Notes under the pieces: generated by a model
Told to the model about the DNA's origin: nothing
Seen by the model: only the letters and a program-made list of their open reading frames with translations
Database searches by the model: none
Translations under genes and position numbers: made by a program
Origin: Candidatus Omnitrophota bacterium
GTDB taxonomy: Bacteria > Omnitrophota > Gorgyraeia > Aquiviventales > Aquiviventaceae
Direction of reading: 5' to 3'
Length of the DNA: 64,000 bases
NCBI GenBank assembly: GCA_030697665.1
Contig: JAUYPJ010000098.1
Location: 1-64,000 of the forward strand
Shown: positions 1,336-56,573 of the stretch, piece after piece
Numbering within the stretch: position 1 is the first letter of the stretch
Layout of the letters: each line of letters opens with the position of its first letter

Positions 1336-1743
<408 letters not shown>

Positions 1744-1864
1744 TCACGGCGGCCCCACGCGGTCCACTTCTCAGGCCGCCGTGGCCGCCGTCGTAGCCTC
1801 AACAGATTCTTTCCTTTCGCCGACGGCGGGGCTTGCCGTCGGCAAGCCGGCGGAGGTGGGGGGA

Positions 1865-23529: not shown

Positions 23530-24525
23530 TCACCTGTTCGTGTCCCACACGAGCACCGCCGCTCCCACCATAGCCGCATCATCTCCCAGTCGCCCTTGGA
23601 CGACCCGGACCTCCTCCGCCATGAACCGCTGGGCCTGCCCGCGTACCGTGCGGAGCATCGAGGGGGAAAACCATCTCCAAGCCCGCGCCACCCCGCCGCC
23701 GATCACGATCAGATCAGGACCAAGCAGCTTCACGAGGTTCGCCATCGCCACGCCAAGCCAACAGCCCACCTCTGCCCAGATCTGCTGTGCCGCCGCATCC
23801 CCCCGCCGTGCCGCTTGATGGATGAGCGCCGGCGTCATGCGCCCGCCCGCCTGCGCTGCGAGCGTTCGAAGGGGGCCTGTGCTCTGGCGGATCGCGCGCC
23901 GCGCCATCCTGAGAATCGCCGCGGTTCCAACGTACGCCTCAAGACAGCCGCGTCCCCCGCATCCGCAGCGCGGCCCCGCGGGGTGAACGACCATGTGCCC
24001 GATCTCCCCTGCGGCCCAGGTGGTCCCCCGGTGCAGGATCCCGTTCAGGATGAGCCCTCCGCCGACCCCCGTCCCCAGCGTCATCCCGACCAGGTGACGA
24101 AATCCGCGACCGGCCCCAAAGCGCCATTCGCCCAGGGCAAAGAGGTTCGCGTCGTTGTCCACCGCGCAGCGACAGCGCACTCGACGTTCGAGCCGACGGC
24201 GCAGGGGCACCGCCTCCCATCCCGGGACGTTGACCAGCGAACGGACCACTCCCCGCTCGACATCGACAGGACCCGGCGCCCCCACCCCAAGGCCCAGCAG
24301 CTGAGACGGGCGCGCACCCACAGCGCGCGTCAGCTCCTCCGCCGCCTTCCCCACGTCCTCGATGAAGCGGGTAGGATCTTCGCGCTGCCCGGAGGAGACC
24401 ACCCGGCGACCCACCACATGACCATCGGGTCCCACCAGCCCCACCTTCACGTTCGTGCCCCCGAAGTCCACCCCCACCGTCCATCGACGCCGTCCCATCA
24501 TCAAAGGGGAACGTCCACCGTCCAC
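23530..24525 (-). CDS. ROK family sugar kinase (glucokinase-like)
   Basis: WTVGVDFGGTNVKVGLV, CGCGGRGCLEAYVG. Confidence 0.92.
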   Translation of the reverse strand: MDGGRSPLMMGRRRWTVGVDFGGTNVKVGLVGPDGHVVGRRVVSSGQREDPTRFIEDVGKAAEELTRAVGARPSQLLGLGVGAPGPVDVERGVVRSLVNVPGWEAVPLRRRLERRVRCRCAVDNDANLFALGEWRFGAGRGFRHLVGMTLGTGVGGGLILNGILHRGTTWAAGEIGHMVVHPAGPRCGCGGRGCLEAYVGTAAILRMARRAIRQSTGPLRTLAAQAGGRMTPALIHQAARRGDAAAQQIWAEVGCWLGVAMANLVKLLGPDLIVIGGGVARAWRWFSPSMLRTVRGQAQRFMAEEVRVVQGRLGDDAAMVGAAVLVWDTNR

Positions 24526-24541
24526 CGTCCACCGTCCACAG

Positions 24542-26002
24542 TCAAGTGCCAGGTGCGTCTATGGACCATGGACTATCGACTATGGACTGTTCAGGGGACC
24601 AGCGGACGACGCGGTTTCGTCCAGCCCGTTTTCCCGCATAGAGCGCCTGATCGGCTCGCTCGATCAGGCCATCGAGCGTCTGGGCGTCCCCCGGAAAACC
24701 CGCCGCCCCGATGGTGATCGTCTGCGTCAGCTGCTCATCATAGGCGTGGATCTGGTGGAGCTCCACCAATTGCCTCAGGCGCTCCGCAATCGGCATCGCG
24801 TGCTCGATCGGGGTCTCGATCAACAGCAGGATGAACTCCTCACCGCCGAATCGCGCGATGAGGTCAACCTCCCTGAGGTTCTGCTGGAGGAGCCGCGCCA
24901 CCTCCCTCAAGACGACATCGCCGACCAGATGACCGAAGGTGTCGTTCTTCTGCTTGAAGCCATCGAGGTCAGCCATGAAGACGGTGCAGGCCAGCCCATG
25001 GCGCGCTGACCTGGCCAGCTCCTCCTGGGCGTGCGCCAGGAAGTAGTTCCGGACGAAGAGGCCGGTCAGCGCATCCGTCACCGCCAGCGCCTCCACCGCC
25101 TCGTAGAGGTGGACCCGCGACAACTGCAGAGCAAGTTGGTTGGCGATGACGGAGAGCGTCTTCAGCTCCTGCTCTGGAAGCTCCTCGGCGACCAAGACGC
25201 CGATGGGTTTCTGCTCGCTCCACAGGGGAACCCACGACACCCGCGAGACGCCCTCCGGAACGGGGCAGGAAAATTCCCCGGCGGCTGCGCTTGCCGCCTG
25301 AGCCGACGCACGGGCCCGCTCGATGATGGCCCGCTCCATCTCCACGAGCGGGTCTCCTTGGCCGGTGTCCACGGGGACCATCCCACTACCTGGCACTGCC
25401 CGAAGGGCCTGCGCCTGTGGCGCAGATCCGCCTCCGGCGGATGCGCTAGGTAGTGGGACCATCCGTCCGTCGGGTGCGCGGACCGCCCGGAGGACCCTCG
25501 GCCTCTCCTCGGCCAGATCGATCAATCGAAGCCCCTTGGCGCTGACCAATCTGGGGATCGTGTCCAGTGAGGCGCTGAACAGCTCAGGCACGTGGACCGC
25601 TCGCGAGGCGTCCTTCGTCACGCGATAGACGTCGGTGATTTCCGTGATCTGCGTTTCCATCCCCTGCATCGAAGCCTGCAGGGACCCCAGCGCTCGCGCC
25701 GCCTCAGAGAGCTGCGCCATCTGCCGCGCCTCATCCGCGTGGAGCCGCTTCAGCAGCCGCTCATGCTGGATTCGCTGGGCCGCCGGCAGCCAGGGACTCA
25801 GCCCCAACGCCCCAAGCTGGAGCCATCCCATCCAGTGGGCAAGCATCGGGGCCTGCGTCCCCAGGAAGGCCGCCACCGTCAACGCGGTCAAGACGCCGGT
25901 CCATCTCCACGCCCAGAACAGACCGGACAACATCGTGAGGATCCAGCACGCCATCACCAGTAACACGGCAATTCCTCCGTTAGTCCATAGTCCATAGACC
26001 AT
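24542..26002 (-). CDS. GAF-GGDEF diguanylate cyclase
   Basis: DALTGLFVRNYF...ARFGGEEFILLL; hydrophobic N-term; contains in-frame repeat insertion. Confidence 0.88.
   Translation of the reverse strand: MVYGLWTNGGIAVLLVMACWILTMLSGLFWAWRWTGVLTALTVAAFLGTQAPMLAHWMGWLQLGALGLSPWLPAAQRIQHERLLKRLHADEARQMAQLSEAARALGSLQASMQGMETQITEITDVYRVTKDASRAVHVPELFSASLDTIPRLVSAKGLRLIDLAEERPRVLRAVRAPDGRMVPLPSASAGGGSAPQAQALRAVPGSGMVPVDTGQGDPLVEMERAIIERARASAQAASAAAGEFSCPVPEGVSRVSWVPLWSEQKPIGVLVAEELPEQELKTLSVIANQLALQLSRVHLYEAVEALAVTDALTGLFVRNYFLAHAQEELARSARHGLACTVFMADLDGFKQKNDTFGHLVGDVVLREVARLLQQNLREVDLIARFGGEEFILLLIETPIEHAMPIAERLRQLVELHQIHAYDEQLTQTITIGAAGFPGDAQTLDGLIERADQALYAGKRAGRNRVVRWSPEQSIVDSPWSIDAPGT
25374..25464. 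repeat. 81-bp palindromic insertion flanked by 10-bp direct repeat GGGACCATCC
   Basis: GGGACCATCC at 25374-25383 and 25455-25464; inverted arms CCCACTACCTGGC/GCTAGGTAGTGGG; shares TGCGCCTGTGGCGCAG with the 55.8 kb element. Confidence 0.8.
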
Positions 26003-38721: not shown

Positions 38722-40833
38722 TTAGAGCGCCTCGACCGTCCACTGGAGACGGCCCCTCCACCGCGGCATCCTGTCAGGCTCCGCAAGCCCTCCAGGATCT
38801 GCGTGACCGTGATCGAGGATCCAGAAGCACATCAACGACAGCCCCTGATACGTCCGCTCCAGACCGCCTTCCGATTCGGAGACCGTCTCGATGGGGCAGT
38901 ACATCAGCTCAGCCGGCGGATCGATCAGGAGGGTCAGCGAGACGCCGGCCGCCGGCTCTCTGATGACGGCCTCGCGCGCGTGGGGCTGCTGTTGCGGCGT
39001 CCCCAGGTAGCGCTCATCGCGCAAGGCGAGATTGCACTCGAGTCCAATCACCGGCACCCCGCGTCCCTCCAGCTCATAGTCACATTCGAGGGTGGGCTGA
39101 TCGACGCTGATCCGAAAGCGCTTGCGGATGATCCGCCCGTCAACCTGCCGGCTCAGCATGACCCTGAAGCCCCTCGAGCGGACGTCCTCCCCGCCTCCCC
39201 GGCGCCGCTGGTACGGTCCGCTGGACCACAACCGGCGCTCCCCCCAACTCGCGCAGGCCACCTCCTGGAGCGTCGGCATGCTCTGCAGGGCGTAATCAAG
39301 AAACAGGCTGCGGCGATGGTCATCGTAAACGAGCCGGGAGCCGAGGCCGGCCTCTTTGGCCCCCAGGATGTCATGGATGCTGCTGGGGACGTCTCCGCCG
39401 CCGGCCGCCACGTTCAGGCGTGCCGCCTTGAGCGTCTCGTGATAGGGCTCCTCGCGACGGCTCAGGGTATCCAAGAGGTTGAGCTGAGGACCGGAGAGGC
39501 TCCACTCCGTCACCGCGCCGCCCTCATCCGGATCGATGAGGAGACGCATCGCCGCCGTCTTCACCTGCACCTCGTCGCGACCATCGCCATCCGCATCCAC
39601 GCTGGTCATCGACGGACCCTGCCCCACGAGCTGGTCGGTGAGCTGTTCAGCGGCGATCAGATGGGCCTGGATGGCGCGTCGCAAATGGGAGAGGTAGAGC
39701 CCGCCGAACACCCCATGCCAGTACGCGCAGTTGCATTGGGCCATGTACAGATGTCGCCTGGCCAAACTCAAGGCTTGGTTGACAGTGAACCGTTTACCGT
39801 TTACAGGGACTTTCTTTTTCCGTTTCTCTTGTTGTGCTCTGACTGTCAACTGTTCACTGTTCACTGTACACTCGCACAAGCGTCGGCTGATGGAGAGCAT
39901 CTTCTGATACATGGCGTTCGCTTCAGGATACTTCGTGAAAAAGTTCCGAAATTGGCCGCCCGACCACTCCAGCATCTCGTCATAACTGCCGCAGGGGAGA
40001 TAGGCGCTCCCATCCGGAGCCGCCTGCCTGACGTACTCCTGAAAGGTAGTCGTCACAAGCCACTCCCGCTCCCGCTCCAGCGCCGAGAACCACTGCTCAA
40101 GCCACCCCTCGTCATAGACCCACTGGGAGGTCTTGGGCCACAACCCGAACTTCTCCCCATCATCGGCAAAGGTGATGGCCACCGGACGGTCTCGCCGAAG
40201 CCGCCTGAGGAACTCGATCGTCTGCTCCACCGGCTGAAACGGCAGCCAGTAGCGCAGCCGCTTGGATCCGGGGAAGAGGCGGATCGATGCGCCCGCGTAG
40301 TCCGTCGTATAGGAACCCAAGAGGTCCCAGAAGCCGTCCTCCTCGATCTGCAGCGTCCTCGGGAGCCACGGTCTGGCGGGGAAAAACTGGTTGGCGTCGA
40401 CCATCGTGTAGGCCATCCCGGCCTGCGCAAGGGTGGCGGGCACCTCGGGTTCCCACACCCGCTCGGTCAACCACAGCCCGGACGGGTTCACGCGAAACTG
40501 CGCGCGCAGCGCGGCGCGCATCAGCGCGATCTGCCCCTGGCGGTCCGCCTCGGGGATCAGCGGCAGGATCGGCTCATAGTAGCCGGACGCCAACAGCTCG
40601 ACCTGTCCGCGGCGGATGAGCGCGCGCACGCGACGCAGGAACGCGGGCTGATGTGTGATGAGCCAATCGAGCAGGCAGCCGCTGTAATGGAGCGCCAGGC
40701 GCACCCGGGGGTGTCGCTCCAACACCCGCAGGAAGGGATCGTACGCCTTCGCATACGCCTCCTCGAAGACAAACCCGAAGTTCCCGATTGGCTGATGGCA
40801 ATGGATCGCCATCAACAACGTCACGTCACTCAT
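38722..40833 (-). CDS. GH57 family alpha-amylase/4-alpha-glucanotransferase-like
   Basis: MSDVTLLMAIHCHQPIGNFGFVFEEAYAKAYDPFL, FADDGEKFGLWP, CNCAYWHGVFGGLYLSHLRRAI; contains in-frame repeat. Confidence 0.9.
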   Translation of the reverse strand: MSDVTLLMAIHCHQPIGNFGFVFEEAYAKAYDPFLRVLERHPRVRLALHYSGCLLDWLITHQPAFLRRVRALIRRGQVELLASGYYEPILPLIPEADRQGQIALMRAALRAQFRVNPSGLWLTERVWEPEVPATLAQAGMAYTMVDANQFFPARPWLPRTLQIEEDGFWDLLGSYTTDYAGASIRLFPGSKRLRYWLPFQPVEQTIEFLRRLRRDRPVAITFADDGEKFGLWPKTSQWVYDEGWLEQWFSALEREREWLVTTTFQEYVRQAAPDGSAYLPCGSYDEMLEWSGGQFRNFFTKYPEANAMYQKMLSISRRLCECTVNSEQLTVRAQQEKRKKKVPVNGKRFTVNQALSLARRHLYMAQCNCAYWHGVFGGLYLSHLRRAIQAHLIAAEQLTDQLVGQGPSMTSVDADGDGRDEVQVKTAAMRLLIDPDEGGAVTEWSLSGPQLNLLDTLSRREEPYHETLKAARLNVAAGGGDVPSSIHDILGAKEAGLGSRLVYDDHRRSLFLDYALQSMPTLQEVACASWGERRLWSSGPYQRRRGGGEDVRSRGFRVMLSRQVDGRIIRKRFRISVDQPTLECDYELEGRGVPVIGLECNLALRDERYLGTPQQQPHAREAVIREPAAGVSLTLLIDPPAELMYCPIETVSESEGGLERTYQGLSLMCFWILDHGHADPGGLAEPDRMPRWRGRLQWTVEAL
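39775..39875. repeat. Word repeat hairpin inserted in frame inside the GH57 gene
   Basis: ggttgacagtgaaccgtttaccgtttac...gactgtcaactgttcactgttcactgtacac; encodes TVNSEQLTVRAQQEKRKKKVPVNGKRFTVNQ. Confidence 0.8.
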
Positions 40834-40975
40834 CCCACCACCTGGCTGCCTGCGCCTGCGGCGCAGACGCGGCGGGTGCTTCCACTGCCGTGACACGTCT
40901 CCCACCCGCCGCGATCGCGGCGCTGCAGTCGTTCGTTTCCGCGGCGTGCGCCGCGACAGCTAGGTGGTGGGATCA
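40831..40975. repeat. CCCACCACCT palindromic element, copy 1 (yvcK stop to GH57 start)
   Basis: Ends ATCCCACCACCTGGCTGCC / GACAGCTAGGTGGTGGGAT; internal GC hairpins. Confidence 0.88.
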
Positions 40976-42241
40976 TCGCTCATCCGACTGACGGTTCACG
41001 GGGGAACGTCCCCGAATTGCCCCGATGAGCTGCATGATCACTTTGGCGACCTTCTCGGAGTCGTGACGCACGTAGTTCTCCGTGCTGATGAGGTTATCGG
41101 CGACGACCTGGTAGCCGAGCTCCCGGATCCGCTGGATATCGGGCTCCACCGGAACGGCCTGCTCCTGGTGGTACTTCTCGAGGAGCGCGGGGGGCACCGG
41201 CTCGGTGTTGAGCATGCACAGCTGGATAATTCCGGGATTCGTGTGCGTCACGAGCGCGCGCACGTGGTCGCTGGCGCGGTAGCCGTGCGTCTCGCGGCTC
41301 TGGGTCATCACGTTGCAGACGTAGATCTTGAGCGCCTTGGATTGCACGATCGCCTCCACCATGCGCTCCACCAACAGGTTGGGAATCACGCTCGTGTAGA
41401 GGGAGCCGGGGCCGAGGAGGATCGCATTGGCTTCCCGGATGGCATCGAGCGCTTCGGGGGTCGGCTGGCACCCGCTCGGCTCCAGGTAGATGCGACGGAT
41501 GGGCTCATCCGCTCTTGAGATGTTGGTCTCGCCGGTCGTCACGCTCCCATCCTCATGCTCGGCCACCAGGCACACCTTGGTCCTGGTGGACGGGACCACG
41601 CGCCCTCGAATGGCCAAGACCTTGCTGGAGGCCTGGATCGCCTGCTCAAAATCGCCGGTGATCTTGGTCATGGCGGTCAGGAACAGGTTCCCGAAGCTGT
41701 GGCCTTTGAGCGTGGACTCCTCCGCGAAGCGGTACTGGAAGAGCCGCTGCATGAGCGGCTCGGTGTCGGCCAGCGCCACCAGGCAGTTCCGGATGTCGCC
41801 TGGCGGGAGCATGCCGAACTCCTCCCGCAGACGGCCGGAGCTCCCTCCGTCGTCGGCGACCGTGACGATGGCCGTGATGTTGGTCGTATAGTGCTTCAAC
41901 CCGTGCAGGAGCGTCGAGAGCCCCGTTCCTCCCCCCATGACGACGATCTTCGGGCCCCGCTCCAGATGACGCCGCTGGAAGACGAGCTCCACGAGATCGT
42001 GGGAGTGGTGGGCCGGCGAGACCGCTTCCACCAAGGAGCGCACCATGAGCCCCACCCCCATGGCGAGCGAGAGGAGGCCTACGAGGAGGGTGAGGAGACT
42101 CGCCAGCCGCAGGAGGATGCCGCCCTCGATGGGCAGCAGGGCCGCCCCCACCCCGAACAGGAAGATTCCCCCGACGGCGAGGAAGAGCCACCGCTTGACC
42201 TGCATGCCGGGGTAGAACCATTTGAGGAATCGATTGGGCAT
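40973..42241 (-). CDS. yvcK: YvcK/CofD-like gluconeogenesis factor with N-terminal TM region
   Basis: IVVMGGGTGLSTLLHGLKHYTTNITAIVTVADDGGSSGRLREEFGMLPPGDIRNCLVAL. Confidence 0.93.
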   Translation of the reverse strand: MPNRFLKWFYPGMQVKRWLFLAVGGIFLFGVGAALLPIEGGILLRLASLLTLLVGLLSLAMGVGLMVRSLVEAVSPAHHSHDLVELVFQRRHLERGPKIVVMGGGTGLSTLLHGLKHYTTNITAIVTVADDGGSSGRLREEFGMLPPGDIRNCLVALADTEPLMQRLFQYRFAEESTLKGHSFGNLFLTAMTKITGDFEQAIQASSKVLAIRGRVVPSTRTKVCLVAEHEDGSVTTGETNISRADEPIRRIYLEPSGCQPTPEALDAIREANAILLGPGSLYTSVIPNLLVERMVEAIVQSKALKIYVCNVMTQSRETHGYRASDHVRALVTHTNPGIIQLCMLNTEPVPPALLEKYHQEQAVPVEPDIQRIRELGYQVVADNLISTENYVRHDSEKVAKVIMQLIGAIRGRSPVNRQSDER

Positions 42242-42243
42242 AG

Positions 42244-42360
42244 AGGATTGCCTCATTGGGCCATTGAGTCATTGATTCATTGGATCATTGACTTACAATG
42301 TTGCAATGGCTCAATGACACAATGGCTAAATGGCTCAATGAACCAATGGATCAATTGAAG
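42244..42360. repeat. Word repeat: ATTGAGTCATTGATTCATTGG... / CAATGGCTCAATGACACAATGGC...
   Basis: Tandem CATTGA(N) words followed by reverse-complement TCAATG words between ptsN and yvcK. Confidence 0.8.
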
Positions 42361-42831: not shown

Positions 42832-42938
42832 CCGTCACCCTCTTCTAGCCAAGCTCACCATCTCGCCTGGCTTCGCCAAACGTGGCCTTCTTATTCGTCG
42901 GCCGGCGAATCTTCAAACCCCTCATATGGTCAAAACGA

Positions 42939-43009
42939 GCGGGAGACGGGGTTTGAACCCGCGACCCTCACGTTGGCAACGTGATGCTCTACCGCTGAGC
43001 TACTCCCGC
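42939..43009 (-). tRNA. tRNA-Gly(GCC)
   Basis: GCGGGAGTAGCTCAGCGGTAGAGCATCACGTTGCCAACGTGAGGGTCGCGGGTTCAAACCCCGTCTCCCGC cloverleaf. Confidence 0.95.
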
Positions 43010-43051
43010 GTCAACTCTCAACTCGACACGTTCAACTCGCAACTTACTGTA

Positions 43052-43133
43052 TGGGCATGGAGGGATTCGAACCCCCACGGGTTTCCCCAACGGCTCCTAA
43101 GGCCGTAGCGTCTACCGTTCCGCCACATGCCCG
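43052..43133 (-). tRNA. tRNA-Leu(TAG)
   Basis: CGGGCATGTGGCGGAACGGTAGACGCTACGGCCTTAGGAGCCGT... with long variable arm, GGTTCGAATCC. Confidence 0.93.
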
Positions 43134-43261
43134 TGATCGCCCCTGCTTCTCGTGTGGCGATCATCCCGAGGCCACAGGCCGAGGGATATCACTTGACACC
43201 TCGCAGCGCTTGAGCGCTGCTCGGTGTCGTTTTCGCCACAGTCCAACAGGAGCGAAAACGA

Positions 43262-43332
43262 TGGGCCGCGAAGGGATCGAACCTTCATCTACAGCTTAAG
43301 AGGCTGCAGCTTTGCCATTAAGCTAGCGGCCC
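43262..43332 (-). tRNA. tRNA-Lys(CTT)
   Basis: GGGCCGCTAGCTTAATGGCAAAGCTGCAGCCTCTTAAGCTGTAGATGAAGGTTCGATCCCTTCGCGGCCCA. Confidence 0.92.
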
Positions 43333-43452
43333 GTCAAAACTGTGTCATGTGAAAGTAGATGAAGCCCCCGCTGATTTGCTTCTCTCTCACGATGGCAAAT
43401 CAATGCCGCGGGGGCGATTTTTGCCATGAGAAACGCTCAGGGCAAAAATCGC

Positions 43453-43525
43453 GCGCCCGGCAGGATTCGAACCTGCTACCTCTTGGTTCGAAGCCAAGCG
43501 CTCTGTCCGATTGAGCTACGGGCGC
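43453..43525 (-). tRNA. tRNA-Arg(TCG)
   Basis: GCGCCCGTAGCTCAATCGGACAGAGCGCTTGGCTTCGAACCAAGAGGTAGCAGGTTCGAATCCTGCCGGGCGC. Confidence 0.95.
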
Positions 43526-54912: not shown

Positions 54913-55820
54913 TCACGTGTCACCCAGAAGTGTTTCCGCTGCCTGTTCGACCTGGCGGGTGAGCCACTGGACGATGCTGGGATGCGGCAGGAGCGCCTCC
55001 CCGCGATAGGCGTAGGCCAGGCCCGTGAGCCGCTGGGGAATCTTGGCCTCGATCCCTCCCCTGGCGATGAGCAAGGGGACGACGAGGACTCGACCCCGCC
55101 GGCTGCACTCCTGGACGATTGAGCGCATCCGCGCAATCGCCGCCTCCTGCACCGGTGTCGGAGCGTCGTCGCGCATCGTCACCGGAATCACCGCCTGGAA
55201 TCCCCCCCGCGCCCTGACCGCAGCCGCGAGGCGCTCCATCATCTCATGCCATCGGAGATCATCGTCATCACTCGTCGGGCCGTGCGCCACCAGCACGACG
55301 GCCTCCTCCTGGGGCGAGCGGCTCAACCGCTGCGCCCGCTCCACGAGCACCTCCGCCACCGCCGGATCATCCTCCAGCGGACCCGTCATGAGGATGGGTG
55401 TGCGCAGCGTGAGCGGGCGCACCATCGCCTCCCACGGCCCGTGCTCACGCAGCCCGAAGAGGTACTGGAACTGCCGCATCACCTCAGAGGAAGAGGAGAT
55501 CAGCAGCGGAACCACCACGAGCCGCCGCGCCCCGCGCCGCTCCAGCCGTTCGACGGCTTGCTGAAGTCGATCGACTTCGTGGGGGTGCATCCCCATCCCA
55601 AACACCACCTCAGTGGGGACGGACAACTTCGCCTGGGCCACCGTCTGGCGGACCGCCTGGTTCCACCGTCGAGAGCCGCCGTGGGCCAGCACCACGACCC
55701 CGATTTCGCGCTCGGCATCCGAGGCAGGGTGAAGGGTAAAGGGTGACGGGTGAAGGGTACAGCTCAGCGTTGCGCACAATGCCCCGACCCCGATACCCGC
55801 GCGCCACCAGCCACACTTCA
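54913..55820 (-). CDS. Sirohydrochlorin chelatase CbiX-like, with N-terminal signal-like region
   Basis: VVLAHGGSRRWNQAVRQTVAQAK, VVFGMGMHPHEVDRLQQAVERLERRGARRLVVVPLLIS; start abuts palindromic element. Confidence 0.8.
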
Positions 55821-55958
55821 TCCCACCACCTGGCTGCCTGCGCCTGTGGCGCAGACGCGGTGGCTTCGTGTCGTGAACTGCTCCACACCCGCCGCGTCCG
55901 CGGCGCTCAATGTGGTCGTTTCCGCGGCGTGCGCCGCGACAGCGAGGTGGTGGGATCA
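55818..55958. repeat. CCCACCACCT palindromic element, copy 2 (folE stop to cbiX start)
   Basis: Same ends and internal hairpins as 40831-40975. Confidence 0.88.
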
Positions 55959-56573
55959 TGCGAGGGAGGAGCGGATCAACGTCAAAAATTCCGTGCGGGT
56001 TTTGTCGCTGGAACGAAAGACCCCCAGCATGGAGCTGGTCACCGCCCGAGCGTTCTGCTTCTGCACCCCCCGCATCATCATGCACAGGTGGCTTGCCTCG
56101 ACGACGCACGCCACCCCGATGGGACGGACGTGCTCGTTGATCGCCTCGGCGATCTGCGTCGTGAGTCGCTCCTGCACCTGCAGGCGGTGGGCGAAGACAT
56201 CCACAAGCCTCGGGATCTTGCTCAGGCCGAGGATTTTTTTGTCCGGCACGTACGCGATGTGGCACTTCCCAAAAAAGGGCAAGCAATGGTGTTCGCACAA
56301 GCTGTAGAAATCAATATCCTTCACGATGACCATTTCATCATGTTTCACTTGGGCGAAGGCGCGTTTGAGAATCTTCGCCGGGTCCTGCCGGTAGCCGGAG
56401 GTCAGAAACTGCAAGGCCTTCTTCACCCGCAGCGGGGTCCGTCGGAGCCCCTCACGGTTGGGGTCTTCTCCCATCAGCCGCAGGAGCAGCCGCACCGCAG
56501 ACTCCCACTCTTTCGCCGCGGGGACTTCCAGTGCCTGGCGTAATTGTATCAACTCATCGTTGGTGTTCGACAT
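55956..56573 (-). CDS. folE: GTP cyclohydrolase I
   Basis: [57 protein letters not shown]. Confidence 0.96.

Follow-up and report, generated by a model that had tools for sequence, protein, structure and literature searches.

A 78-bp insert in a GGDEF gene is one copy of a hairpin-rich mobile element family and belongs to its short, in-frame class. The gene lies in a 64,000-nt stretch of a Candidatus Omnitrophota genome (GenBank assembly GCA_030697665.1, contig JAUYPJ010000098.1, positions 1 to 64,000), referred to here as the window. Copies of the family share the ends YCCCACCACCT...AGGTGGTGGGR, have varied multi-hairpin interiors, and are flanked by 3-bp duplications. The family is very probably non-autonomous and similar to miniature inverted-repeat transposable elements (MITEs), with a 3-bp target duplication and with copies that persist where translation stays unbroken, the short ones as linkers within proteins and the long ones as mini-cistrons at NTGA overlaps between genes.

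The insert and its host gene have the following features:
24542..26002, minus strand: host gene, a GGDEF protein with a 27-aa insert absent in orthologues
25381..25458, minus strand (that of the host gene): element with a 76-bp core CCC...GGG plus terminal T/A, an in-frame insertion
25378..25380, no strand: target-site duplication CCA, left copy
25459..25461, no strand: target-site duplication CCA, right copy

The host open reading frame (ORF; 486 aa; Pfam GGDEF, E 1.5e-42) reads through the interrupting element, TCCCACTACCT...AGGTAGTGGGA, as APDGRMVP-LPSASAGGGSAPQAQALRAVPGSG-MVPVDTGQGD, and the insert folds into hairpins, which bears out the sequence-only reading of this DNA as an in-frame hairpin insertion. 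The inverted repeat TCCCACTACCTGGC / GCTAGGTAGTGGGA occupies 25381-25394 / 25445-25458, and the predicted RNA fold has a closing stem around three hairpins (-55.1 kcal/mol, z -7.3 against shuffled sequences). The whole element recurs in its own genome (G000), at 88% identity in C104 (E 7.8e-23), 81% in C70, 80% in C100, and 76% in C25. Because of this recurrence and a fold 7.3 standard deviations more stable than shuffles, the insert is not a product of chance. The 10-bp direct repeat GGGACCATCC, taken earlier for the target-site duplication, is present at 25374-25383 and 25455-25464 with an 81-nt offset, but the true duplication is the 3-bp CCA, which looks like 10 bp because the T/A and GGG/CC ends of the element itself and chance matches lengthen it. 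The proposed kinship with copies at 40.8 and 55.8 kb likewise holds in part: their ends and one of their hairpins match the insert beyond chance (20 bp, 95-100%), but they form a longer sub-family, and the nearest relatives of the insert are other 76-bp copies. Short repeats of the GTCCATAGTCCATAG type were also seen in intergenic positions and at either end of the GGDEF ORF (window 24440-24700 and 25980-26002).

The sequence-only reading had suggested a comparison of orthologues for the uninterrupted site, and the 27 residues are missing from all 21 GGDEF orthologues of the same family, which are ~38-61% identical over the aligned part. The insertion site is an otherwise variable linker, and the orthologues in L033 and L035 carry short unrelated extra residues there. 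These two facts are what could be said for the segment being an old part of the protein and its repeat a coincidence; that explanation is already refuted by the 21 orthologues and by DNA sharing 76-88% identity with copies at other loci. With empty orthologues and close relatives elsewhere, the mobility claimed for the family is upheld.

We gathered 165 copies from the same genome and other Omnitrophota, all of the genomes compared being draft metagenome-assembled genomes (MAGs). The end patterns found 36 copies in the own genome, and a reversed-pattern control found none. Among 38 own copies gathered by their ends alone, 34 had an exact 3-bp direct repeat outside the terminal T/A or C/G pair. 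The duplicated target is taken as 3 bp because an exact repeat occurred at this register in 133 of 145 copies from own and related genomes and at the neighbouring ones in 0-5 of 145; one copy had a 4-bp duplication (TTGA). The cores are 61-166 bp long, contain no transposase gene, and fall into two classes, longer copies of mostly 96-156 bp and short copies of mostly 76-85 bp.

Several other arrangements were noted. Two elements lie close together in L226 (222-461) and L168 (3828-4105), and the second one in L226 is inserted in tandem, at the ATGA created by the first. Near position 1239 of L146, element-like ends enclose ATTGCGGATT-type repeats, not hairpins. Solitary AGGTGGTGGGATGA-like sequences stand at apparent gene junctions in L118, L119, L143, and L153, with no left arm; they are perhaps natural ribosome-binding sites resembling the end of the element, or decayed copies.

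The longer copies sit between genes, as in three cases from the window:
40833..40972, minus strand: 138-bp-core copy at the stop/start overlap between a CofD-like gene (40973-42256) and a GH57 gene (39334-40833)
40830..40976, minus strand: mini-cistron MIPPPSCRGARRGNERLQRRDRGGWETCHGSGSTRRVCAAGAGSQVVG*, whose start overlaps the upstream stop (ATGA) and whose stop overlaps the downstream start (ATGA)
55821..55955, minus strand: 133-bp-core copy between the genes for GTP cyclohydrolase I (55956-56573) and a CbiX-domain protein (54913-55821)
1728..1864, minus strand: 135-bp-core copy at a GTGA overlap, with mini-cistron VIPPPPPACRRQ...AQVGG* (~1725-1868)

The 40.8 kb copy is flanked by TCA (TGA on the minus strand) at 40830-40832 and 40973-40975. 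The 55.8 kb copy has a length of 1 mod 3, so its frame reads on and adds an N-terminal extension to the downstream gene. Across the family, the duplicate was TGA (or TCA on the other strand) in 138 of 165 copies, a share inflated by the ascertainment of some related-genome copies with ATSA on one flank; among own long copies found without a flank requirement, it was TGA/TCA in 23 of 25. With copies oriented by TGA, 114 had A as the preceding base, 16 had G, and 3 had T, which makes the site an overlap of a start codon with TGA. The target logo contained only A-TGA (1.1 bits at A) and a weak general composition. Both flanking frames, to the left TGA and from the right ATG, were open for at least 50 codons at 98 of the 138 NTGA copies, compared with 55 of 528 ATGA sites in the window (~10%; p 6e-64).

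After insertion the left duplicate retains the upstream stop TGA, and the downstream gene gains a new ATG, formed by the last A of the element and the TG of the right duplicate and preceded by AGGTGGTGGG. The usual encoded mini-cistron, MIPPP...VVG*, overlaps both neighbours by 4 nt. A single mini-cistron was present in 116 of the 138 NTGA copies, and two or three coupled ones in 10. Core length was 0 mod 3 in 117 of 138 (p 1e-35); in this class, the frame from the left NTG to the right TGA was stop-free in 99 of the first 100 examined, against 34-61 of 100 for the other five frames. NTGA copies of 2 mod 3 mostly contained a pair of mini-cistrons linked through an internal overlap, and those of 1 mod 3 mostly ran in frame into the downstream gene. 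Shuffled interiors, inverted elements, and other frames served as controls because open frames are partly easy to obtain in a genome of 64% GC. A continuous translation frame was kept in 133 of 138 copies versus 53% with shuffled interiors; with the element inverted, the coupled chain was kept in 34% (47/138), with 37 reading on. Substitutions between close copies fell on the three codon positions as 184:195:178, and 27.5% were synonymous versus 28.4% expected. Since codon positions were hit equally and the synonymous share was as expected, the absence of stops alone is selected and the peptide is not; the codon-position counts thus rule out a functional mini-cistron peptide.

The short copies preserve the frame inside genes. 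Fifty-one of 72 had a length of 1 mod 3, so that core, terminal pair, and duplicate together add a whole number of codons. All 13 short copies with a clear coding signal on both sides were in frame and stop-free on one strand (chance 6e-7 for the frame alone), and 12 of them encoded linkers rich in Pro, Ala, Gly, Ser, and Thr, mostly PPP...GGG; these five residues made up 70% inside intragenic copies versus 47% in mini-cistrons. The hosts include UvrA (L169), a pyruvate:ferredoxin oxidoreductase subunit (L189; L350 apparently shares the site), and membrane proteins, and the target duplicates were CCA, CGA, ACA, and TCA.

Empty sites were found between genes as well. In four relatives (L240, L241, L244, and L246), the CofD-like and GH57 genes are joined simply by an ATGA overlap, whereas the junction carries elements with different interiors in L243, L247, and L249. 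L239 and L242 have inserts there with unrelated ends (57 and 25 codons including the stop), again arranged as ATGA-mini-ATGA, which suggests that other repeat families use the same stop/start niche. At the junction of the 55.8 kb copy, L274 likewise has only the ATGA overlap, and L275 carries a degenerate element. Unrelated flanks surround copies that are 3-8 nt apart, and together with the empty sites these copies are strong evidence for mobility. In L321 and L322, from two genera, orthologous proteins have an in-frame short element at one shared site (PVALTPPP...GGGVNGF), which suggests that it was retained through long vertical descent.

The closing stem shows compensated changes at several positions. 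In an alignment of eight 76-bp copies, 11 pairs were changed on both sides, compared with 3.7 in shuffles and 0-1 when slid. This covariation fits either a selected RNA/DNA structure or a need for both ends to suit one enzyme. A strand test for selection at the RNA level was mixed: the internal hairpins gave 15 G.U against 2 A.C, favouring the sense RNA, but the closing stem did not. In an Rfam search of the window, nothing except four tRNAs exceeded the gathering score; a four-tRNA cluster lies on the minus strand at 42938-43525.

The family has so far been found in Omnitrophota bacteria only. Among 27 compared genomes of the same GTDB family (own genome included), 17 had long copies and 21 had short ones; long copies were absent from all 32 genomes compared elsewhere in the class. 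A two-end scan of ~85,000 species genomes returned 71 stretches. They carry the title Omnitrophota or Omnitrophica apart from those of a single MAG with many copies, titled Planctomycetales Bin_23_1_1 (L167-L237, contigs SBAZ01...), which is probably a mislabelled Omnitrophota genome.

In the most likely mechanism, a transposase acting in trans, perhaps of the DDE type and cutting with a 3-bp stagger, would move the elements, and copies would persist at sites where translation is left unbroken. On the established view of polarity and coupling (PMC12548453), a structured insert that is not translated would, within an operon, favour termination by Rho and obstruct initiation at the following gene. 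Both could be avoided if the insert is an open mini-cistron overlapping its neighbours by 4 nt: ribosomes would translate it and then re-initiate at the downstream gene, whose ATG may be served by the G-rich right end, which resembles a ribosome-binding site, and the host would be spared polarity and blocked initiation.

Some observations weigh against this account, as does the flank ascertainment described above. We found no transposase with family ends in the fetched loci or beside four DDE genes and one Y1 gene. Many short copies are not classifiable as intragenic, and the closing stem, with 22 G.U and 26 A.C, has no strand asymmetry. That ribosomes translate the mini-cistrons is something we infer from the sequence. 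An autonomous partner may be missing because the assembly is in 148 contigs. Two sources of transposase were tried and rejected. A longer autonomous element was sought as pairs of ends 230-5000 bp apart in the fetched loci, which yielded 19 weak candidates, none with a target duplication, and the Y1 (one partial Y1_Tnp) and DDE_Tnp_1 genes of the genome were considered as mobilisers and had no pair of family ends adjoining.

The positions could also arise by active targeting, with an insertion machinery that recognises stop/start overlaps, for example ATGA plus an upstream ribosome-binding site or a translating mRNA, rather than by selection against insertions elsewhere. Almost no long copies occur in ordinary intergenic DNA, and at least three elements, each with its own interior, occupy the CofD/GH57 junction in different genera, both of which favour targeting. 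The sparse information in the target logo argues against it, and TGA cannot be required because intragenic copies use other duplicates; we regard targeting as a real possibility, if an unlikely one. We also doubt, though we would not dismiss, that the family represents an undescribed Omnitrophota transposition system, with integration directed to or coupled with stop/start overlaps and one set of ends serving two translated lifestyles.

Alternatively, the elements could be useful to the host as domesticated translational couplers, with hairpins that would mask the ribosome-binding site as long as the mini-cistron is not being translated. The right arm is Shine-Dalgarno-like and pairs with the left one, there is covariation in the closing stem, and an RNA-unfolding model of coupling is established (PMC12548453). 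Copies nevertheless differ between genera, orthologous junctions are often empty, and interiors diverge freely, while covariation of the ends would also be expected if both must match one transposase; such a regulatory role is rather improbable. Repetitive extragenic palindromes (REPs) moved by a Y1 transposase (REP-associated tyrosine transposase, RAYT) would share the palindromic form and high copy number, and the genome has its partial Y1_Tnp gene. The family differs in having a direct 3-bp duplication at a fixed register, a length of 76-156 bp with inverted repeats at both ends, and no such ends near the Y1 gene. To our knowledge, single-strand transposition of the IS200/IS605 type is not expected to make a direct 3-bp duplication, and we consider a REP origin very improbable. 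A non-autonomous, MITE-like family retained where translation is unbroken is our preferred explanation.

These elements indicate how mobile DNA can accumulate in gene-dense operons while ribosomes keep moving, since stop, start, spacing, and frame are kept while the peptide drifts. If translation is confirmed, the family would provide a natural set of well over 100 mobile translational couplers for the study of ATGA re-initiation and of polarity effects on transposon survival. It would also mean that many mini-cistrons are unannotated, and recognising the linker inserts would allow length variation in UvrA and the ferredoxin oxidoreductase to be read correctly.

In the literature on Omnitrophota repeats and on transposons at stop/start overlaps, we found no description of the family. 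Bacterial MITEs such as Chunjie of Geobacter uraniireducens (cited in PMC10969869) and the ERIC (enterobacterial repetitive intergenic consensus) and RU (repeat unit) elements (PMC2759123) are short and non-autonomous, with terminal inverted and direct repeats and varied size. Chunjie inserted in an operon without disturbing it, according to the title cited there, and RU elements carry ORFs. The Omnitrophota family has the terminal inverted repeats, constant-length duplication, small size, and lack of an internal transposase of such MITEs; its exact NTGA-overlap habit, with length and frame suited to continuous translation, was not found in the portions of the MITE descriptions consulted. GTAG/CGTC REP elements with RAYTs are palindromic repeats, some of them intragenic, including in uvrA/uvrB of other bacteria (PMC3733652); they are much shorter and have other end tags, in contrast to the YCCC...GGGR ends and 3-bp duplication seen here.

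For the between-gene mode, the nearest precedent is the mycobacterial interspersed repetitive unit (MIRU), which is mobile and carries an ORF that becomes coupled at a spacing of -4 nt (Supply et al. 1997, as summarised in PMC12548453); the reason proposed is minimal harm to the host. The Omnitrophota repeat ORF similarly overlaps the stop and start of its neighbours by 4 nt. MIRUs are not known to have dyad symmetry, whereas the Omnitrophota elements have strong inverted repeats and hairpins. Compared by description only, the Omnitrophota family differs in its terminal inverted repeats, multi-hairpin interiors, 3-bp duplication, and intragenic in-frame sub-family. For the within-gene mode, the nearest precedent is the Rickettsia palindromic elements (RPEs), which are ~150 bp, palindromic, and placed in frame inside protein genes, with conserved peptides reported as their products (PMC10969869, PMC3733652). 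Both families insert in frame within protein genes, whereas the peptide of the Omnitrophota element is not conserved and most of its copies are mini-cistrons between genes. We do not assign the family to MIRUs or RPEs because it works like both and fails features of each; it is set apart from them by having terminal inverted repeats and target duplications along with the two modes.
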